This document shows positions 23,541 through 52,845 of a stretch of 64,000 nucleotides of DNA, piece after piece (the first letter of the stretch is position 1; each line of letters opens with the position of its first letter). Source of the DNA: Haloplanus ruber (GTDB lineage Archaea > Halobacteriota > Halobacteria > Halobacteriales > Haloferacaceae). The DNA lies in assembly GCF_024494725.1 (NCBI RefSeq), contig NZ_JANHDK010000001.1:1240001-1304000 (forward strand). The letters run 5' to 3'. Position numbers and translations under genes: made by a program. The notes under the pieces are model-generated. The model ran no database searches and was not told where the DNA came from. It saw nothing but the letters and a program-made list of their open reading frames with translations.

Positions 23541-24656
23541 TCAGGCGTACTTCGACCCCTCGTGACTGGTTCCGTGGGCGTCGGGGTCGTAGTAGTCCTC
23601 GCGCTTCTCGCCGACCACGTCGATTTCGGCCAGCATCCCCCGGCGGGCGACGCGGCTGAGCGCGTGGTCGACGAGTTTGATCCGCTCGGGGACCGGCGTG
23701 TCCATCTCGCCGATCATACAGCTTCCAGGCGGCACCTTCATCGTCTGGATGTTCCGGTCGGCGTAGGCCTCGAAGTCGCCATTCTGGGGGAGGCCGCCGT
23801 CGCGGTAGGCTCGCTTCCAGACGTTGCCGATGGGGTGGAAGTTACTGGAGTAGTTGGGGCCGCCGTCGACCATGAACACGCGAACCCGTTCGCCTTGCTG
23901 GACCTCGACGGGGCCGCGGTTCGCGGCCGCCCACGCGTACTTCTCGCCGTTCAGGAGCACGTAGGTCGGGTCCTCGCGCTTCATCGCGTCCATGTCGAAG
24001 CTGTGTTTCCCCTCCTGGCCCACCTCGCCATCGGTGTAAACCTCGTGCTGGCCGAAGTAGAGTTCGCGGTCCACCGTCGGAAGCCCACCTTCCGGCTCGA
24101 CGAGGATCATGCCGAACATGCCGGCACTGATGTGCATATCCAGGTTCGGCACGGCACAGTGGTAGATGAACGCCCCCGGGTAGTCGGCCCGGAACGTCAT
24201 GGCGTTCTCCTCGCCGGGCGCGGCGGTGGTCGCCACCGCCCCGCCACCGGAGCCGTAGACGGCGTGGAGGTCCACATTGTGCGGGAGGGCGTTACCCGAG
24301 GGACTCTCGAAGGTCAGGTCGACGGTGTCTCCCCGACGGACCCGTATCATCGGGCCGGGAATCTGGCCGCCGAACGTCATGAAGTCGAAGGTCACCCCCG
24401 GCTCGATCTCAGCGGTCACCTCCTCGGCAGTTACCGTGACCTCGTGGGTTGTCGGCTCGTCCCGGTCGATAGGATCCGGGAGGTCGGTCGGGTCGGCCGC
24501 CACCTGGTCGGCCGTCGGCGTCGACGTCTGCTCGACCTGCTGTCGCTGTATCTCCGCTTCAGAGGCCGTCGGAGCCTCGGCGCTGCACCCCGCAACCGTC
24601 GCCGCGCCGCCGATACCGAGCGCCTGGAGCGCCCGTCGACGGGTGGTTTCGAACAT
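23541..24656 (-). CDS. nirK: copper-containing nitrite reductase
   Basis: A 371-residue two-cupredoxin enzyme reducing nitrite to nitric oxide outside the membrane. The signal MFETTRRRALQALGIGGAATVAGC combines a Tat motif and a lipobox. Copper ligands are visible: LPHNVDLH (one type 1 and one type 2 His), YHCAVPNLDMHISAGMFGM (type 2 His, type 1 Cys, His, Met) and NFHPIG (type 2 His). The YHCAVPNLDxHISAGM form is typical of class II NirK. A Cu-NIR is about 350-380 residues, so it is full length. A CGAA-N4-TTCG palindrome lies about 85 bases before the ATG. Halocyanin and a MoaD-like protein flank it. Confidence 0.95.
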   Translation of the reverse strand: MFETTRRRALQALGIGGAATVAGCSAEAPTASEAEIQRQQVEQTSTPTADQVAADPTDLPDPIDRDEPTTHEVTVTAEEVTAEIEPGVTFDFMTFGGQIPGPMIRVRRGDTVDLTFESPSGNALPHNVDLHAVYGSGGGAVATTAAPGEENAMTFRADYPGAFIYHCAVPNLDMHISAGMFGMILVEPEGGLPTVDRELYFGQHEVYTDGEVGQEGKHSFDMDAMKREDPTYVLLNGEKYAWAAANRGPVEVQQGERVRVFMVDGGPNYSSNFHPIGNVWKRAYRDGGLPQNGDFEAYADRNIQTMKVPPGSCMIGEMDTPVPERIKLVDHALSRVARRGMLAEIDVVGEKREDYYDPDAHGTSHEGSKYA

Positions 24657-24735: not shown

Positions 24736-24747
24736 CGAACCCGTTCG
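24736..24747. promoter_or_regulatory. CGAACCCGTTCG palindrome upstream of nirK
   Basis: A 12-base CGAA-N4-TTCG inverted repeat centred 85 bases before the nirK ATG. Matching 12-mers occur at 25269-25280 and 52834-52845. It resembles, from memory, the CGAAC/GTTCG-type inverted motif reported for the haloarchaeal denitrification activator NarO; the exact spacing of that motif should be checked. Confidence 0.55.
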
Positions 24748-24822: not shown

Positions 24823-25227
24823 TCAACAACAGAAAATAAACGGGTAGACGAGGCTCACGCGGTCCTCGTCCTCGATGTGCGTATCGAAGCCGTCGAGGAC
24901 TTCGTTGAACTTGCCGTTGACTAACACCCGCGCGTATGGTTTCGTCTGTTCGCCCTCGGGGTTTTTGTGCCACGTGCCCGGGAGATTTTCGGGTGGCTTC
25001 GCCCACCCGTCGGTCGTCGCCTCGGCCTCCGTCTCCGCGACGAGCATCTCCGCGAGTCCGGGCTGTTCGTCGAACAGTTTCTCTAGCAGGTCCCGGAGGG
25101 TATCCCCCTGGAACGTGAACGTCTGGTGGGGCTGCTCCATCGCGTCACGGACGTGCCCGGTCGCGTGGAGCGCCACCGTCGTCGTTCTCGGACTCGCCTG
25201 GCTCTCGGTGTCGGTCGTTGTGCTCAT
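24823..25227 (-). CDS. MoaD/ThiS-like ubiquitin-fold protein ending in Cys-Cys
   Basis: A 134-residue protein with the beta-grasp pattern of MoaD proteins: a first strand VALHATGHVRDAM, DTLRDLLEKLFDEQPGLAEML helix, ARVLVNGKFNEVLDG and IEDEDRVSLVYPF. Canonical MoaD and archaeal SAMP proteins end in Gly-Gly, needed for adenylation; this one ends FIFCC. An insertion around residues 66-90 (TTDGWAKPPENLPGTWHKNPEG) is unlike simple MoaD. It lies upstream of nirK on the same strand, and I recall a 'pterin cluster' protein next to nirK in Haloferax. The function is unknown; metal or thiol chemistry at the Cys pair is possible. Confidence 0.82.
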   Translation of the reverse strand: MSTTTDTESQASPRTTTVALHATGHVRDAMEQPHQTFTFQGDTLRDLLEKLFDEQPGLAEMLVAETEAEATTDGWAKPPENLPGTWHKNPEGEQTKPYARVLVNGKFNEVLDGFDTHIEDEDRVSLVYPFIFCC

Positions 25228-25268: not shown

Positions 25269-25280
25269 CGAACATATTCG
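25269..25280. promoter_or_regulatory. CGAACATATTCG palindrome upstream of the MoaD-like gene
   Basis: The second CGAA-N4-TTCG 12-mer, about 42-53 bases before the ATG at 25227 and just upstream of an AT-rich stretch (aaaagctatg) that may be its TATA box. It sits between two divergent genes, so it could serve either the MoaD-like gene or the winged-helix gene at 25351. Confidence 0.55.
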
Positions 25281-25350: not shown

Positions 25351-25728
25351 ATGGTGCGTGATCCGCTGTCGGGTGACGATCCGCCCGACCTGCAGTCGGT
25401 GTTGGACGCTCTCGACGACGCCGACTGCCGGACCATCATCCGACACCTCGACGAACCGATGACGGCGACCGAGGTGTCCGAAGAGTGTGATATCCCCATG
25501 TCTACGACTTACAGAAAACTCGACCTGTTGACCGAGGCGTCGTTGCTCGTCGAGGGGACGGAAATCCGGCCGGACGGTCACCACGCGACCCGCTACGAGA
25601 CCGACTTCGAAGCGGTCACGATTGGACTGACCGACCAGCGTGACCTCGACGTGAATATCGACCGGCCGTCCCACAGCGCCGACGAACGCCTGGCGTCGCT
25701 GTGGGGGGAGGTTCGCAAGGAAACATGA
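25351..25728 (+). CDS. winged-helix regulator paired with a small membrane protein
   Basis: A 125-residue protein with an ArsR-like winged helix: DLQSVLDALDDADCRTIIRHL, MTATEVSEECDIPMSTTYRKLDLLTEASLL (recognition helix in the middle) and the wing VEGTEIRPDGHHATRYETDF. It carries no obvious metal cluster. Its stop overlaps the start of a 91-residue membrane protein by ATGA, so the two are made together. This is a recurrent haloarchaeal pair; the signal and target genes are unknown. Position beside the denitrification genes is suggestive only. Confidence 0.88.
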   Translation: MVRDPLSGDDPPDLQSVLDALDDADCRTIIRHLDEPMTATEVSEECDIPMSTTYRKLDLLTEASLLVEGTEIRPDGHHATRYETDFEAVTIGLTDQRDLDVNIDRPSHSADERLASLWGEVRKET

Positions 25729-26000
25729 GTCACCTCGACATCGCACTCATCGCCGTCAAGACGGGGACGCTACTGCTCGGGAGCCTCATCACCTTCCTCT
25801 CGCTCAAGGCCTACCGGCGGACCGGCACGGCCGCGCTCCGGGCGCTTGGAATCGGGTTCGGCCTCGTCACCGTCGGCGCGCTTCTCGCCGGCGTTGGCCA
25901 CCAGTTCACCACGCTCTCGCTCACACACTCGATTGTCATCGAGAGCGCTCTCACGCTCATCGGCTTCGCCGTTATCGTCTATTCGCTGTACGTGGAGTGA
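25725..26000 (+). CDS. three-helix membrane protein, DUF7521-like, coupled to a winged-helix gene
   Basis: A 91-residue protein with three helices: LIAVKTGTLLLGSLITFLSLKAY, then a cytoplasmic RRTGTAALR loop, LGIGFGLVTVGALLAGVGHQF, and IVIESALTLIGFAVIVYSLYV. A conserved His and acidic residue (LTHSIVIES) begin helix 3. I recognise the layout as DUF7521, function unknown. The ATG is four bases inside the winged-helix gene stop. A distant cousin is the product at 26991-27326, which is also coupled to a winged-helix gene. Confidence 0.85.
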   Translation: MSHLDIALIAVKTGTLLLGSLITFLSLKAYRRTGTAALRALGIGFGLVTVGALLAGVGHQFTTLSLTHSIVIESALTLIGFAVIVYSLYVE

Positions 26001-26048
26001 GCCACCCCGCCATCGCCGGGTCGGGGACGGCATCGGGGTCGTCGGTCG

Positions 26049-26609
26049 TCAGTAGACCACATAGAGCAGGGCGTAGACGACGTTACCGAGGACGAAGGAG
26101 ATCAGCCAGAGGCTCGCAGCGATCCGTCCAACCCGGGCGTGGGCGGTGTCGGTGAGGGCTGCGACCGGGCGCGTCGTCGCGAGAAGGAGCACGTAGTACA
26201 ACAGCGGGATACAGACGATGGCGAGGAGGATGTGGACGGCCAAGACGGGGAGATACACCCACCGGCGGACGGCATCCGGCCCGGGGAACGCCGCAGGCCC
26301 TTCGAGGGTTACCTTGTACAGGTAGAGCACGAGGAAGACGAGAAAGAGGGCAGCCGAGGTCAGCATCATCGCGCGGTGTCTGTGGAACTCGCCGCGCCGG
26401 GCGAAGGCGACGCCGGCGACGATGGTGACCACGGCGACGGCGCTGACGACGGCGTTGACGTGAGGGATGGCAGACAGGGCGAACGCGGGCGCGCGGGGAA
26501 CGACGCCACGGGGAATCGCGCCGAGTACCGCGCCGAACACCAGGGCGAGCGACACGACAGAGAGGGCGGCAGTCATCTCGGGGACACGGGTCCGGACGTC
26601 AAGCGGCAT
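26049..26609 (-). CDS. DUF420 membrane protein
   Basis: A 186-residue membrane protein with five helices. DUF420 marks are visible: AIPHVNAVVSAVAVVTIVAGVAFARRGEFHRHRAMML, FLVFLVLYLYKVTLEGP and LPVLAVHILLAIVCIPLLYYVLL with conserved His residues suited to heme or metal binding. The family is often found near terminal oxidase or nitric-oxide reductase genes and may help assemble them; no reductase is adjacent here. The ATG at 26609 (MPLDVRTRVPEM) is preferred over an eight-codon longer start on family length. Confidence 0.85.
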   Translation of the reverse strand: MPLDVRTRVPEMTAALSVVSLALVFGAVLGAIPRGVVPRAPAFALSAIPHVNAVVSAVAVVTIVAGVAFARRGEFHRHRAMMLTSAALFLVFLVLYLYKVTLEGPAAFPGPDAVRRWVYLPVLAVHILLAIVCIPLLYYVLLLATTRPVAALTDTAHARVGRIAASLWLISFVLGNVVYALLYVVY

Positions 26610-26752
26610 GCCTGACCTGGGGTGGCGACTCACAAAACGTCGGGGATTTCGGGGTAGGATCCGCGGCGGACCGAGACGGGCAAAAGGAAAGCCATTTCAA
26701 ATACCCCCGACAACGGTGGTATGCGTAGCGACGAAATACAGAACCACTGCGA

Positions 26753-26837
26753 GCGTGGGTAGCCAAGCTAGGCCAACGGCGCAGCGTTGAGGGCGCTGTC
26801 CCATAGGGGTCCGCCGGTTCAAATCCGGTCCCACGCA
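26753..26837 (+). tRNA. tRNA-Leu (anticodon GAG)
   Basis: An 85-base class II tRNA. The acceptor GCGTGGG pairs with CCCACGC and A is the discriminator. The D arm starts GCCAAGC, the anticodon stem is CAGCG/CGCTG around loop TTGAGGG, giving GAG (reads CUC). The long variable arm TCCCATAGGGG and T arm GCCGG-TTCAAAT-CCGGT follow. No intron and no encoded CCA. An AT-rich box about 26694-26703 could be its promoter. Confidence 0.95.
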
Positions 26838-26990
26838 TCGCACCGGCGCGAGCGAACGCGAGCGCCCACCGATGCAGGTGATTCCCACCCGGGACATCAC
26901 CCACGCACAACTTCTCTGCGAACGCACGACCACGAGCGTGAGCCACGGCCGGACGAAGCGTTCAGGTACGCACGGGGCGAACAGTCACGT

Positions 26991-27326
26991 ATGACTCCGC
27001 CGGTCCCGCTACACGGCGTCGCGAACGCCGGTGTCACGCCCGGATTGCTCGTCGTCGTCCTCGTCGCGACCCTCGGGGCGGCCGTGCTTCTCGGCCTGGC
27101 CTTCGCGGCCTTCGTCCGACGACGCTCCCGTCCCTACCTCCTGCTCGTGGCCGCCTTCGCGGCGCTACTCGGTCGTTCCGCCGTCGTCGGGGTGAGTCTG
27201 CTCGGCGGCTTCTCGCCGGCCACGCACCACCTCCTCGAACACAGCCTCGACGTGGTGTTGGTGGCACTGGTCGTCGCGGCGGTGTACTACGCCCGGAGCG
27301 TCGACCGGGAGGTGTCTACCTCGTGA
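26991..27326 (+). CDS. three-helix membrane protein, DUF7471-like, coupled to a winged-helix gene
   Basis: A 111-residue protein with three helices: LLVVVLVATLGAAVLLGLAFAAFV, then a basic RRRSRPY loop, LLLVAAFAALLGRSAVVGVSLL and VVLVALVVAAVYYARSV. The start of helix 3 has ATHHLLEHSLD, resembling LTHSIVIESAL in the product at 25725-26000, with the same basic loop after helix 1. The next gene, a winged-helix regulator, begins at GTG 27323 inside this gene's stop. The gene order is the reverse of the first pair. Frames upstream of the ATG at 26991 run back into the tRNA and are not coding. Confidence 0.82.
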   Translation: MTPPVPLHGVANAGVTPGLLVVVLVATLGAAVLLGLAFAAFVRRRSRPYLLLVAAFAALLGRSAVVGVSLLGGFSPATHHLLEHSLDVVLVALVVAAVYYARSVDREVSTS

Positions 27327-27838
27327 CGACGCAACGTGACCGCATCCGCCGACACGTCGACGCCAACCCGGGTGTCCACTTCAACGAACTCGCTCGCGAA
27401 CTTGACCTGGCGACGGGGCAGGTCCAATACCACCTCAAGAAGCTCCGCCGCGACGACGACTTGATCGCGGAGCCACTGTACGGCCGCACACACTACTACA
27501 CGCCGGAGTACGACGCGACAGAGCGTGGCGCCATCGCCGTGTTGCGTCGGGAGACGGCGCGAGACGCGTTGCTCACCCTGATCGACCGGGGGCCGAGTCC
27601 GCCGGATACGGTCGCCGACGACCTCGGAATCGCCCGGAGTACGCTGGAGTGGCACTTGGGTCACCTGACCGAACAGGGCCTCGTCGAGAAGCGACGCGAC
27701 GACCGCGACCGCGTGACACTCGCCCTGTCGCGGCCGGCGGCGACCGCCAGCGCGCTTCGGGAGATCGAACCCTCGCTTCCCGAGCGACTCGTCGACCGGT
27801 TCACGCGACTCGTCGACGGACTGGTCGCCGACGAGTAG
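27323..27838 (+). CDS. double winged-helix transcriptional regulator
   Basis: A 171-residue protein with two consecutive winged-helix units. The first (RDRIRRHVDANPGVHFNELARELDLATGQVQYHLKKLRRDDDLI, residues about 5-50) and the second (ARDALLTLIDRGPSPPDTVADDLGIARSTLEWHLGHLTEQGLVEKRR, about 80-130) follow the ArsR/MarR pattern common in haloarchaea. The C-terminal helix may serve in dimerisation. Translation starts at GTG 27323, overlapping the membrane-protein stop by four bases. Targets are unknown. Confidence 0.88.
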   Translation: MTTQRDRIRRHVDANPGVHFNELARELDLATGQVQYHLKKLRRDDDLIAEPLYGRTHYYTPEYDATERGAIAVLRRETARDALLTLIDRGPSPPDTVADDLGIARSTLEWHLGHLTEQGLVEKRRDDRDRVTLALSRPAATASALREIEPSLPERLVDRFTRLVDGLVADE

Positions 27839-27896: not shown

Positions 27897-29186
27897 ATGT
27901 CTATCGACGGCGACCGCTCGCGGCGGGCCGTCCTGAAAGCGGCCGTCGCACTCGGCGGTGCGAGCGCGCTGAGCGCCTGTCTGGACCGCACCGACGACGA
28001 CCCGGTACCGACGGGTGATCCCGCGGCCAAGCCGCCGCGACAACACGCCTGGCGCGAGTACGTCCGCCACGACGACCACGGGAACAGCCGCCTTCCCGCT
28101 CACCAGGTCCTCCTGTATCTCGATTTCGACGTCGGGGGTCCGCCGACCGACGCGGACCGGGATGCGCTGGCGGCCTCGCTCGCGGCCCTCGACCGCGCCT
28201 ACGCGTGGCGCCACGAAGGCCTCCTTCACTCGATTGCCTACTCGCCGGCCTACTTCGACCGGTTCGACACCCCGCTTCCGGAGGGAATCGACCTCCCGGA
28301 ACCGACGGCCCTGTCACCGTTCGAGTCGCCGACGTTCGACCGGCAGGACGCCGTCCTCCACCTCGCGAGCGACCGGGCCGACGCCGTGTTGGAAGCCGAC
28401 CGCGCCCTCCGCGGAGAGCGCGAGGCGGCAAACGGCGTGTCGGTCCCGTCGCTCACCGAGGTGGCGACGGTAGACTCCCGGCGGACGGGCTTCGTCGGCG
28501 CCGGCCTCCCCGCAGCCAACCAGGACGCGGCGGGGATTCCCGACTCAAAGCCCGTGCCGGAGGCGTCGCCGCTGTTCATGGGGTTCGAAGCGGGATTTCG
28601 CGGTAACCAGGCGACCGAGGACTACGTCACCGTCGATACGGGTCCCTTCGCCGGGGGGACGACCAAGGTGATCGCCAACCTGCGCCAGCGACTCGCCGAC
28701 TGGTACGACGAGCAGTCCCACGAGGAACGAGTGATGGAGATGTTCAGCCCGGGGCACGCCGAAAACGGTCTCGTCGAGGGCGTCGGCGACAACCTCGGGT
28801 CGTCGAGCGGAATCGACCGGTTCGTCGACAGCGTCGTCGACGACGCGCGCGAGCACGGACGGGTCGGCCACGCCCAGAAGGCCGCGCGGGCGAACCGCGA
28901 CGCGGACGGGAACGTCCGCCTGCTGCGCCGACACTTCGAGTCGACCGACGACATCGGATCGGACCAGCGGGTCGCCAGCCTGCACTTTCCGTCCCTCCAG
29001 CGGCGGATCTCGGCGTTCGAGGCCGTGCGTCGGGCGATGAACGGAACGGACCTGACCGAGGCGACACCGGCGATTCGTCAGCGGGTCAACAACGGCATTC
29101 TGGAGTACATCTTCGTGCGCCGGCGGGGGAACTTCCTCGTCCCGCCACGGCGACACCGGGTTCTGCCGACGCCGCGGCCGGAGTGA
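27897..29186 (+). CDS. DyP-peroxidase-like Tat lipoprotein (DUF7405 type), likely lacking the catalytic Asp
   Basis: A 429-residue exported protein: RR at residues 9-10 and lipobox Cys28. The body follows the heme-binding DyP fold in order. GFVGAGLP at 198-205 sits where DyP enzymes have GF-x-DG; GGTTKVIANLRQRLADWYD (253-271) matches the strand-helix after it; GHAQKAARAN with His325 fits the proximal heme-ligand segment; LLRRHF (342-347) matches the conserved LLRRGY. The catalytic Asp of GxxDG is absent, so peroxidase activity is doubtful though heme binding may remain. It is followed by a P19-like lipoprotein, echoing EfeB plus P19 iron systems. Confidence 0.75.
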   Translation: MSIDGDRSRRAVLKAAVALGGASALSACLDRTDDDPVPTGDPAAKPPRQHAWREYVRHDDHGNSRLPAHQVLLYLDFDVGGPPTDADRDALAASLAALDRAYAWRHEGLLHSIAYSPAYFDRFDTPLPEGIDLPEPTALSPFESPTFDRQDAVLHLASDRADAVLEADRALRGEREAANGVSVPSLTEVATVDSRRTGFVGAGLPAANQDAAGIPDSKPVPEASPLFMGFEAGFRGNQATEDYVTVDTGPFAGGTTKVIANLRQRLADWYDEQSHEERVMEMFSPGHAENGLVEGVGDNLGSSSGIDRFVDSVVDDAREHGRVGHAQKAARANRDADGNVRLLRRHFESTDDIGSDQRVASLHFPSLQRRISAFEAVRRAMNGTDLTEATPAIRQRVNNGILEYIFVRRRGNFLVPPRRHRVLPTPRPE

Positions 29187-30366: not shown

Positions 30367-31311
30367 ATGGCAGGCCCCGTCACCGACGCGCTCGCCTGGG
30401 CCGTCATCGGGCTGTTTCTCGTCGGTGCGCTCCTCCGCTGGCGGGAGTACGACGGCGGGCGGACGGTTACCGTCGCCGCCTGGGCCGTCTTCGCCGCCTT
30501 CTGGGCGGCGCTCGTCCCCCACTTCGCGTTCGAGCAAAAGAGCTTCGTCGAGGGCTTTCTCTCGCTGGCCGCCGTCCCCGCGTCGCTGTACGTCGGATGG
30601 CTCCTCTACGACGGCCGGGACTCCCTGTTCGTCCTTTCGAAGGCCGTCGCGGTCATGGGGGTCGTCTACCTCCCCTTCGAGACGATTCCGGCGCTCACGA
30701 TGGGCGGCCTCGCGCTCCCCTCACCCCGGTATGTCCTCATCTCGCATACGACCGCCCAGACCGAGCGAGCGATGGAACTGCTCGGGTACACGCCGACGCT
30801 CGTTGAAGGCGATCAGGGCTATCTCAATACGTTCAAATTCGTCACCGAGGGCGGACACGTCATCCTGTTCTCGATCATCCTCGCCTGTACAGGCCTGGGA
30901 AGCATCGCCATCTTCGTCGGCCTTATCGCCGCCGTGAAGGCGCCGTTGGGTCGAAAACTCCGTGCGCTCGCCATCGCCGTGCCCGTCATCTACGTCCTCA
31001 ACATCGCACGGACGACGTTTATCGGCCTGATGTTCGGCAAGCAGTATATGCAGTGGTTCGTCGACGAAGTCCTCTTCCTGTTCGGCGGGACCGACCCCTA
31101 CAAGGTCTCCTTTTACCTCTCGGATCGCGTCATCAGCCAGGTGCTCGCGGTGTTTGCACTGATCGCCGTCACCTACCTGGTCGTCCGCGAACTCCCCGAA
31201 CTGCTGACGATCATCGAGGACGTCCTCTATGTCGTCACCCGCGAGGAGTACGACCTTCGGGAGGCCCTCGACCTGCCCGAACGGGGCGAGGTCGGACCGG
31301 GCGCCGATTAA
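30367..31311 (+). CDS. artA: archaeosortase A
   Basis: A 314-residue membrane protein with about eight helices. The exosortase/archaeosortase triad can be placed at Cys174 (IILACTGLGSIAIF), Arg215 (NIARTTFIG) and Arg254 (LSDRVIS), one residue beyond the Haloferax ArtA positions as I recall them (Cys173, Arg214, Arg253). It cleaves PGF-CTERM tails of surface proteins such as the S-layer glycoprotein and couples them to a lipid. The box ggatttatcc at 30335-30344 is about 28 bases before the ATG. The gene is followed by an AT-rich spacer and a convergent gene. Confidence 0.95.
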   Translation: MAGPVTDALAWAVIGLFLVGALLRWREYDGGRTVTVAAWAVFAAFWAALVPHFAFEQKSFVEGFLSLAAVPASLYVGWLLYDGRDSLFVLSKAVAVMGVVYLPFETIPALTMGGLALPSPRYVLISHTTAQTERAMELLGYTPTLVEGDQGYLNTFKFVTEGGHVILFSIILACTGLGSIAIFVGLIAAVKAPLGRKLRALAIAVPVIYVLNIARTTFIGLMFGKQYMQWFVDEVLFLFGGTDPYKVSFYLSDRVISQVLAVFALIAVTYLVVRELPELLTIIEDVLYVVTREEYDLREALDLPERGEVGPGAD

Positions 31312-51800: not shown

Positions 51801-52127
51801 ATGGCAGCCAGGCCGCCCCAACAGGATTCGTCGTCACCGGATGCGATCGAGTTCGGCATCGCGGCACTGGCCGGCCACCTCGACCGGACGGACATCGACT
51901 TCCCCGCGACGGACGAGGAAATCGTCCGCGCGCTTGGTGATCCGGACGTGCCGTACGATGCCGCCGGCAGCGCCGTCGCGCTCTCGGAGGCGATAGAGAC
52001 GCTCCCGAAACGAACCTTCGAATCCGAGTCGGAGTTGCTCGACCTGCTCCACCCCGTCTTCGAGGAGTACCGCGTCTCGACGAGTGGGAGTCTACTCGGC
52101 CGCCTCCGTTCGATCCTTCCCTTCTAG
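51801..52127 (+). CDS. DUF5789-like small protein
   Basis: A 108-residue protein with the pattern FPATDEEIVRALGDPDVPYDAAGSAVALSEAIETLPKRTFESESELLDLLHPVFEEYR, close to haloarchaeal DUF5789/DUF2795-like helical proteins. The C terminus is basic and hydrophobic (LLGRLRSILPF). Function unknown. tttttag at 51771-51777 is about 28 bases before the ATG. Its stop shares four bases (CTAG) with the convergent HTH gene. Confidence 0.8.
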   Translation: MAARPPQQDSSSPDAIEFGIAALAGHLDRTDIDFPATDEEIVRALGDPDVPYDAAGSAVALSEAIETLPKRTFESESELLDLLHPVFEEYRVSTSGSLLGRLRSILPF

Positions 52128-52789
52128 CCGACGGCCTGTGGTGTCTCGTCGAGCGCCACGTCCAGTCGCTCGGTGACGAACTCCTTGATCACACGCTCTT
52201 CGGCCCGGTGGAGCGTGACACTCGCCGTCGACTTCGCTAGGTCGGCCGCCTCGGCAACGTCGGTCAGCGTGCTCTCCCGCGGGGTGTCGTAGTAGCCCAT
52301 CTCGACGGCCGTCACCAGCAACTCCTGTTGGCCGTCGGTGAGCAGATTCGGCGACTCCGTGGCGTCGTACACCCGGTTGAGGGTATAGGACATCCCGAAG
52401 GCGTCGAGTTGGCGGCCGAACTCCGAGAGCCGATCCCGGGAGGCCGTGAGTTCGATGACCGCCTCGCCGTCCCTGATCGTCACGGGGAGTTCGATGGGTG
52501 CCCCCGACTCCTGAATCGACAGGAGAAGCAGAGGCTCGCTCGTCTCGAACTGGACGATGACGGTATCGTCGGTCTGTTGCATCAGTTCCAGCGAGGAGAT
52601 ACCCGAGCGATCCTCGAGGGCGTCGAGTACGTCGGGCATCTCCGCGCTCTCGATTTCGAGCAGGCCGAACCCCGCGTCCCCCGACGGCACCGCCGAGAGC
52701 ACCCGGAACGTCGTCGATGGAAACGACCGAGAAATCTCCCCGATCCAGATGGCGGACGGCAGGTCGATGGTGAGCTTGGCGTATGGCAT
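52124..52789 (-). CDS. second Bat-type HTH_10 transcriptional regulator
   Basis: A 221-residue paralogue of the product at 22803-23441; long stretches align, for example TFRVLSAVPSGDAGFGLLEIES, IVQFETSEPLLLLSI, ELTASRDRLSEFGRQLDAFG and the HTH (TAVEMGYYDTPRESTLTDVAEAADLAKSTASVTLHRAE). It too lacks a Cys cluster. A CGAATATGTTCG palindrome lies 45-56 bases upstream of its ATG, the same motif found beside nirK, so it may belong to the anaerobic regulon or control itself. Confidence 0.92.
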   Translation of the reverse strand: MPYAKLTIDLPSAIWIGEISRSFPSTTFRVLSAVPSGDAGFGLLEIESAEMPDVLDALEDRSGISSLELMQQTDDTVIVQFETSEPLLLLSIQESGAPIELPVTIRDGEAVIELTASRDRLSEFGRQLDAFGMSYTLNRVYDATESPNLLTDGQQELLVTAVEMGYYDTPRESTLTDVAEAADLAKSTASVTLHRAEERVIKEFVTERLDVALDETPQAVG

Positions 52790-52833
52790 GGGTGCGCGTG
52801 GACGAACGTGAGCCGGTCACACGGGGGTTTACC

Positions 52834-52845
52834 CGAATATGTTCG
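52834..52845. promoter_or_regulatory. CGAATATGTTCG palindrome upstream of the second Bat-type regulator
   Basis: The third CGAA-N4-TTCG 12-mer, located just upstream of the box ggtaaacc (52826-52833 on the coding strand) that could serve as TATA for the minus-strand gene. It is the near reverse complement of the site at 25269-25280: CGAATATGTTCG against CGAACATATTCG, which are exact reverse complements. Confidence 0.6.

Follow-up and report, generated by a model that had tools for sequence, protein, structure and literature searches.

Winged-helix regulators paired with three-helix membrane proteins in Haloplanus ruber: a possible undescribed family of two-protein switches in haloarchaea and many methanogens

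Two gene pairs in the window

The window analysed here is a 64,000-nucleotide stretch of the genome of Haloplanus ruber (NCBI RefSeq assembly GCF_024494725.1, contig NZ_JANHDK010000001.1, positions 1,240,001 to 1,304,000 of the forward strand). It carries two pairs of overlapping genes, each encoding a winged-helix (wH) regulator and a small three-helix membrane protein: wH1 with a DUF7521 protein (pair 1), and a DUF7471 protein with a double wH regulator (pair 2). An initial annotation of the sequence had described two translationally coupled modules here, with a DUF420 gene and a tRNA gene between them. The modules proved correct to the base, including their ATGA and GTGA overlaps, and both intervening genes were recovered, by Pfam and ARAGORN respectively. 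The gap between the pairs is 990 bp.

25351-25728, plus strand: wH1, single winged-helix regulator of pair 1, HTH_20-type, 125 amino acids (aa); Pfam HTH_20 42.8 bits, conserved DUF7521 partner
25725-25728, plus strand: ATGA stop/start overlap of pair 1, read from the sequence
25725-26000, plus strand: DUF7521, three-helix membrane protein of pair 1, 91 aa; PF24365 103.8 bits, full length
26049-26633, minus strand: DUF420 membrane protein, between the pairs; PF04238 125.7 bits
26753-26837, plus strand: tRNA-Leu (GAG), between the pairs; ARAGORN
26991-27326, plus strand: DUF7471, three-helix membrane protein of pair 2, 111 aa; PF24283 104.1 bits
27323-27326, plus strand: GTGA stop/start overlap of pair 2, read from the sequence
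27323-27838, plus strand: double wH, regulator of pair 2, HVO_0163 type, 171 aa; PF24266 119.7 bits and HTH_20 48 bits

A gene caller based on codon usage, whose training set came mostly from other genes in the window, independently chose the same four frames and starts. The window proteins score far over the Pfam gathering cut-offs for DUF7521 (PF24365, 27), DUF7471 (PF24283, 27) and HTH_HVO_0163_N (PF24266, 31). DUF7521 and DUF7471 are Pfam families without an assigned function; a literature search returned no paper naming either, and one, an acetylome study, that mentions HVO_0163.

Conservation of the gene pairs

DUF7521 is present in 96 of 97 haloarchaeal genomes and DUF7471 in 204 of 242. 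The initial annotation had made its proposal depend on conserved linkage in other genomes, and such linkage was found: a wH gene adjoins 29 of 34 DUF7521 domains in a 10-genome sample drawn without regard to score, and 37 of 41 DUF7471 domains in a sample of about one genome per genus. The window genome itself has seven DUF7521 copies, each adjoining a wH1-like gene, which lies upstream on the same strand in six cases and is divergent in one. At a threshold of at least 60 bits, 36 wH genes of the pair type were counted in 40 DUF7521 loci vs none in 490 kb of control DNA. The pairing is thus not due to chance.

The linkage is real and old. Outside Halobacteria a wH gene directly precedes 11 of 12 sampled DUF7521 relatives, and at four loci with weak DUF7471 matches, in Methanosarcina-like genomes, a small membrane protein gene overlaps that of a double wH protein. 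A stop/start overlap of 4 bases is seen again in 62 of 89 wH1-DUF7521 pairs, and in 15 of 28 co-directional DUF7471 pairs. Family distances of wH1 and DUF7521 are correlated (Mantel r = 0.91, permutation maximum 0.34, 75 pairs), and the two therefore travel together; this value means co-inheritance, not contact.

The opposite order of the two pairs, which had been presented as a defining contrast, did not survive the haloarchaeal survey. The wH gene nearly always comes first with DUF7521, and among the 37 linked DUF7471 domains the membrane protein is first in 21, divergent in 14 and preceded by the wH gene in two; among the 30 top-scoring DUF7471 loci, 25 are divergent. As the position of DUF7471 relative to its partner varies (upstream, divergent, sometimes downstream), gene order is a trait of lineages and was dropped as a rule. 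The spacing of about 1 kb holds in the window and is a genus-level arrangement: the block with both pairs occurs in the window genome and in five further genomes of the genus, and in the samples from other genera the DUF7521 and DUF7471 pairs lie apart. A nirK gene was seen at three of the five other block loci, the remaining ones not all being long enough to judge.

Two variants of the layout were also recorded. Tandem DUF7521 genes stand behind a single wH gene at loci L126, L127, L129 and L131, and perhaps encode hetero-oligomeric sensors. At L347:1450-2056, in the window genome, a single wH gene is followed by one for a 93-aa three-helix protein without a Pfam match, in the same arrangement.

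The membrane proteins

Both membrane proteins were modelled with AF2 as three helices, at 3-33, 36-61 and 66-90 for DUF7521 (mean pLDDT 92.0) and at 17-44, 47-70 and 76-110 for DUF7471 (mean pLDDT 92.9). A Foldseek comparison of these models with the PDB gave nothing at E <= 0.001, and a sequence search of the PDB gave chance matches only. Because positive charges concentrate in the loop between helices 1 and 2 (3.7-3.9 lysines plus arginines across the two families, vs 0.04-0.27 in loop 2-3), the predicted topology has the N-terminus on the outside and both the basic loop and the C-terminus in the cytoplasm.

Five residues of DUF7471 are invariant in 56 aligned sequences: R44, H79, H80, H84 and D87, the last four forming the motif HHxxxHxxD. 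R62 is conserved in 98% of sequences and E83 in 88%, and residue 76 is methionine in 62%. The stretch H79-D87, at the end of helix 3 nearest the outside, is predicted to face outward and is a plausible metal or haem site. A His/acidic motif opening helix 3 had been proposed as common to both proteins. Conserved histidines exist only in DUF7471, and the motif was rejected as a shared feature: the DUF7521 family alignment contains no conserved histidine and no conserved metal ligand, and the THS and GHQ of the window DUF7521 are not family features.

The proposed relationship of the two membrane proteins fared differently by direct comparison and through intermediates. In a direct HHalign comparison DUF7521 and DUF7471 scored 38% forward and 61% with columns reversed, and strict hidden Markov models (HMMs) of the two families scored at background level against each other. 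Direct homology was therefore rejected, and on this comparison the similarity does not go beyond hydrophobicity. An iterative search that seemed to join the families was set aside as its profile had absorbed intermediates. The window genome encodes, however, a third family, represented by a three-helix protein of 95 aa with a double wH protein after it (L344, L345), and in all 22 of its relatives that were examined a wH gene of this type is adjacent or close by. The third-family profile scored above 10 bits on 88 of 136 DUF7521 and 26 of 71 DUF7471 proteins, vs one of 85 other small membrane proteins (a borderline DUF7471) and none of 292 reversed sequences. HHalign gave 94% between this family and DUF7521 and 76% between it and DUF7471, and roughly 20% or lower for the reversed controls. 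As the third family bridges both above the reversed controls, DUF7521 and DUF7471 likely share descent through intermediates. L344 and L345 are two similar copies on different contigs, beside a membrane protein that weakly resembles ferric reductases.

Gene neighbourhoods

Pair 1 and pair 2 are flanked in the window by the following genes.

23541-24656, minus strand: NirK, copper nitrite reductase; TIGR02376 365 bits (cut-off 296.3)
24823-25227, minus strand: SAMP/MoaD-like small protein, divergent from wH1; weak NF041918/ThiS matches
27897-29186, plus strand: DUF7405 secreted-type protein, downstream of pair 2; PF24152 539 bits
29245-30327, plus strand: DUF7350/Iron_transport (P19-like) lipoprotein; PF24041 183.7 bits, PF10634 27.5 bits

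Copper was first suspected because of the annotated neighbours of plasmid relatives, among which are multicopper oxidase, plastocyanin, heavy-metal ATPase and 'iron transporter' genes. The copper-related set comprised NosL, NosD, SCO1, CopC, P19-like, multicopper, plastocyanin and heavy-metal ATPase genes, the P19-like 'iron transporter' being one that we take to be copper-related from general knowledge of that family. A member of this set lies within 3 kb of DUF7471 at 25 of 39 loci, vs 3 of 40 controls (p = 9e-8). DUF7405 and the DUF7350/P19-like lipoprotein recur in 14 and 11 of the 39 DUF7471 loci respectively, each vs 0 of 40 controls. The second DUF7471 gene of the window genome belongs to a single operon, DUF7471-nosL-double wH (L259:1153-2712, minus strand), in which the copper chaperone gene sits between the other two.

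DUF7521 loci carry NirK/multicopper genes in 9 of 40 cases and plastocyanin in 8 of 40, neither being found in 40 controls. When coordinates were compared by hand, at least 11 of 97 genomes, from seven genera, showed DUF7521 no more than 1.5 kb from a NirK-family match.

The NirK matches of three genomes of one genus (g26; L300, L301 and L302) have one in-frame TGA. The SAMP/MoaD-like protein is kept in the genus of the window genome, and its C-terminus is FCC, not the GG usual for ubiquitin-like modifiers. Downstream of the P19-like gene, at 30367-31308, an exosortase/archaeosortase-like membrane protein is encoded that falls just under the Pfam cut-off.

A denitrification motif upstream of pair 1

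Work on Haloferax mediterranei identified and mutagenised a semi-palindrome in the nor, nos and nir promoters, at a distance of 66-79 nt from the start codon; for nirK it lies 79 nt upstream of the ATG (PMC10062603). This motif, CGAACATGTTCG, matters for denitrification genes, and its regulator has been reported as unknown (PMC10062603, PMC11218638). Two copies lie near pair 1.

25269-25280, no strand assigned: CGAACATATTCG, haloarchaeal denitrification semi-palindrome in a variant form; wH1 starts 70 bp downstream
24736-24747, no strand assigned: CGAACCCGTTCG, second motif copy, preceding the nirK start by about 80 nt

The first copy, CGAACATATTCG, sits between the divergent wH1 and SAMP-like genes, and CGAACATGTTCG or a variant occurs at the equivalent place in related genomes. 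Counted by a fixed pattern, in place of one-mismatch counts of CGAACATGTTCG, the motif has a density per 100 kb of 29.7 at nirK loci, 5.2 at DUF7521 loci and 0.66 in controls. Among 101 wH1 genes, 8 have it in the 250 bp upstream (five at 65-77 bp), vs 1 of 2000 control windows. On account of the copy upstream of wH1 and of this enrichment, pair 1 is probably part of the denitrification regulon.

A further motif of the denitrification type, CGAATATGTTCG, lies at 52834-52845, just upstream of a gene on the minus strand that matches HTH_10 (bacterio-opsin activator-like) at 52127-52816. This gene is a candidate for the regulator of the denitrification motif or for a member of its regulon.

Proposed function and alternatives

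The pairing, the overlaps, the topology signals, the invariant residues, the neighbourhood enrichment and the motif are all computational observations. An outer ligand site, a basic loop, a co-translated wH protein and shared inheritance together point to a split transmembrane one-component switch. Each pair would then be a sensor/regulator of two proteins that works without a kinase. The three-helix protein would take up a signal at its outer face and hand it on, via the basic loop in the cytoplasm, to the wH protein made with it, which might be held at the membrane or released; the wH protein would then control its own pair and the neighbouring genes. For DUF7471 the signal would most likely be a metal ion, copper before others, or a linked redox state, bound by HHxxxHxxD. 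For DUF7521 it may vary from copy to copy, the copy in pair 1 serving copper and denitrification enzymes. We regard a split transmembrane sensor/regulator switch, with copper or a linked redox state as the likeliest signal for DUF7471, as the best explanation, with a likelihood slightly better than even. The pairs may form an undescribed family of two-protein switches, spread across haloarchaea and many methanogens. As genes for copper handling often lie beside them, they may be the means by which these cells perceive the metal or redox state of their surroundings. A bolder version, which we hold to be doubtful, would make DUF7471 an outward copper sensor whose HHxxxHxxD directly controls the co-translated double wH protein, and the founding case of a superfamily of two-protein transmembrane signalling systems without a kinase, common to haloarchaea and further archaea in their phylum. 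DUF7521 and the third family would then be versions adapted to different signals, among them the control of the archaellum by way of CsmR-like proteins.

Several points weigh against the proposed switch. Some of the copper categories were picked after the first DUF7471 set had been viewed, and in fresh DUF7471 loci the enrichment is real but weaker (10 of 20 with a copper-related gene vs 2 of 19 controls, p = 0.014). Copper genes are missing at a third of the DUF7471 loci and at two thirds of the DUF7521 loci. One DUF7521 copy of the window genome lies between a wH gene and archaellins, next to a KaiC-like gene, so not every copy has copper as its signal. The histidines are missing from the DUF7471-like proteins of Methanosarcina-like genomes, no wH-membrane fusion protein was seen among the sampled loci, and some DUF7521 genes have no adjacent wH gene, those at L114 and L197 lying near a heavy-metal ATPase instead. 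Contact between the partners, metal binding, the direction of regulation and the target promoters enter the proposal by inference.

The DUF7521 genes at L114 and L197 would also suit a different role, in which the membrane protein is itself the effector (a metal or small-molecule permease, a chaperone or a respiratory accessory factor), carrying no signal across the membrane, and the wH protein is its local autoregulator. A three-helix protein that carries an invariant HHxxxHxxD might transport copper or pass it on, and DUF7471 does share an operon with nosL. DUF7521, however, has no conserved metal ligand, the versions in other archaeal families retain the wH protein without the histidines, and the 4-base coupling together with r = 0.91 across contexts that include archaellins better fits a regulatory partner; we consider the effector role unlikely. 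The pairs could instead be a toxin-antitoxin or immunity system, as they are small co-translated DNA-binding and membrane proteins, often on large plasmids, but DUF7521 is near-universal (found in all but one of the genomes surveyed), co-inherited with its partner and placed beside respiratory and motility genes, which makes this very improbable.

The same split switch might respond to oxygen, quinone or redox state and not to copper, with copper genes adjoining because respiration and denitrification use copper proteins. The window context of nirK, plastocyanin and DUF420, the denitrification motif upstream of wH1 and the oxidase-type cluster at the DUF7521 locus L197 all agree with this, and the histidines would also be able to bind haem. 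It is the copper-delivery genes proper (NosL, SCO1, CopC and P19-like) that are enriched near DUF7471, however, and we lean against this alternative while giving it an appreciable chance. It is also nearly an even question whether pairs 1 and 2 have no joint function, their nearness reflecting the history of one genus, with the balance tilting somewhat away from that view. The restriction of the two-pair block to the window genome and five others of the genus speaks for separate functions; both pairs, on the other hand, fall in the bridged membrane superfamily paired with wH proteins, and both lie in copper/redox neighbourhoods.

Comparison with known systems

The proposed switch resembles SdpR-SdpI of Bacillus subtilis, in which an ArsR-type autorepressor is sequestered at the membrane by a polytopic receptor that senses an outside ligand (PMC1626106). 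Each consists of a winged-helix gene and a gene for a small membrane protein in one operon, and by analogy the pairs most likely work in this manner. They differ in being archaeal, in their other neighbours and in not being members of the SdpR or SdpI families. Against the SdpR model NF033789 (cut-off 100 bits), wH1 scored 19.8 bits and the double wH protein 24.8 bits, and a Pfam search of the window membrane proteins gave no SdpI family match up to E = 1.

Membrane-bound regulators of the CadC/ToxR type have helix-turn-helix (HTH) and transmembrane parts in one polypeptide. ArnR/ArnR1 of Sulfolobus likewise couple a transmembrane part to an HTH domain in a single polypeptide, according to PMC13286277. 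The direct coupling of a transmembrane protein to an HTH domain is common to these regulators and the window pairs, whereas in the window pairs the two parts are the products of two co-translated genes.

CsmR (HVO_1209), a regulator of the archaellum and cell shape in Haloferax volcanii, is described in PMC13286277 as a 13-kDa winged helix encoded upstream of archaellins, with the KaiC-like CirA nearby. The window genome has a wH-DUF7521-archaellin locus similar to that of CsmR, and DUF7521 lies beside the wH gene in 21 of 30 sampled CsmR-like loci. The placing of HVO_1209 in the wH1 lineage is based on synteny, however, and not on sequence; DUF7521 is missing there at three loci, all from one genus (g3); and a membrane partner is not discussed in the passages of PMC13286277 consulted. 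HVO_1208 was considered as a DUF7521 partner of CsmR and dropped, given the same three g3 genomes. The two-protein scheme may also explain signal input to CsmR-type motility regulators.

Archaea are thought to have fewer kinase-based membrane sensors than bacteria. The copper two-component systems CusSR and CopSR tie outward metal sensing to transcription and are encoded beside copper genes. The window pairs are like them in the proposed link from outward metal sensing to transcription and in the adjoining copper genes, and unlike them in having no histidine kinase or receiver domain, none being found in the pairs above the Pfam or NCBIfam cut-offs. HHxxxHxxD offers a testable metal-site motif, and the pairs are concrete candidates for haloarchaeal copper sensing or for the switching of denitrification genes.

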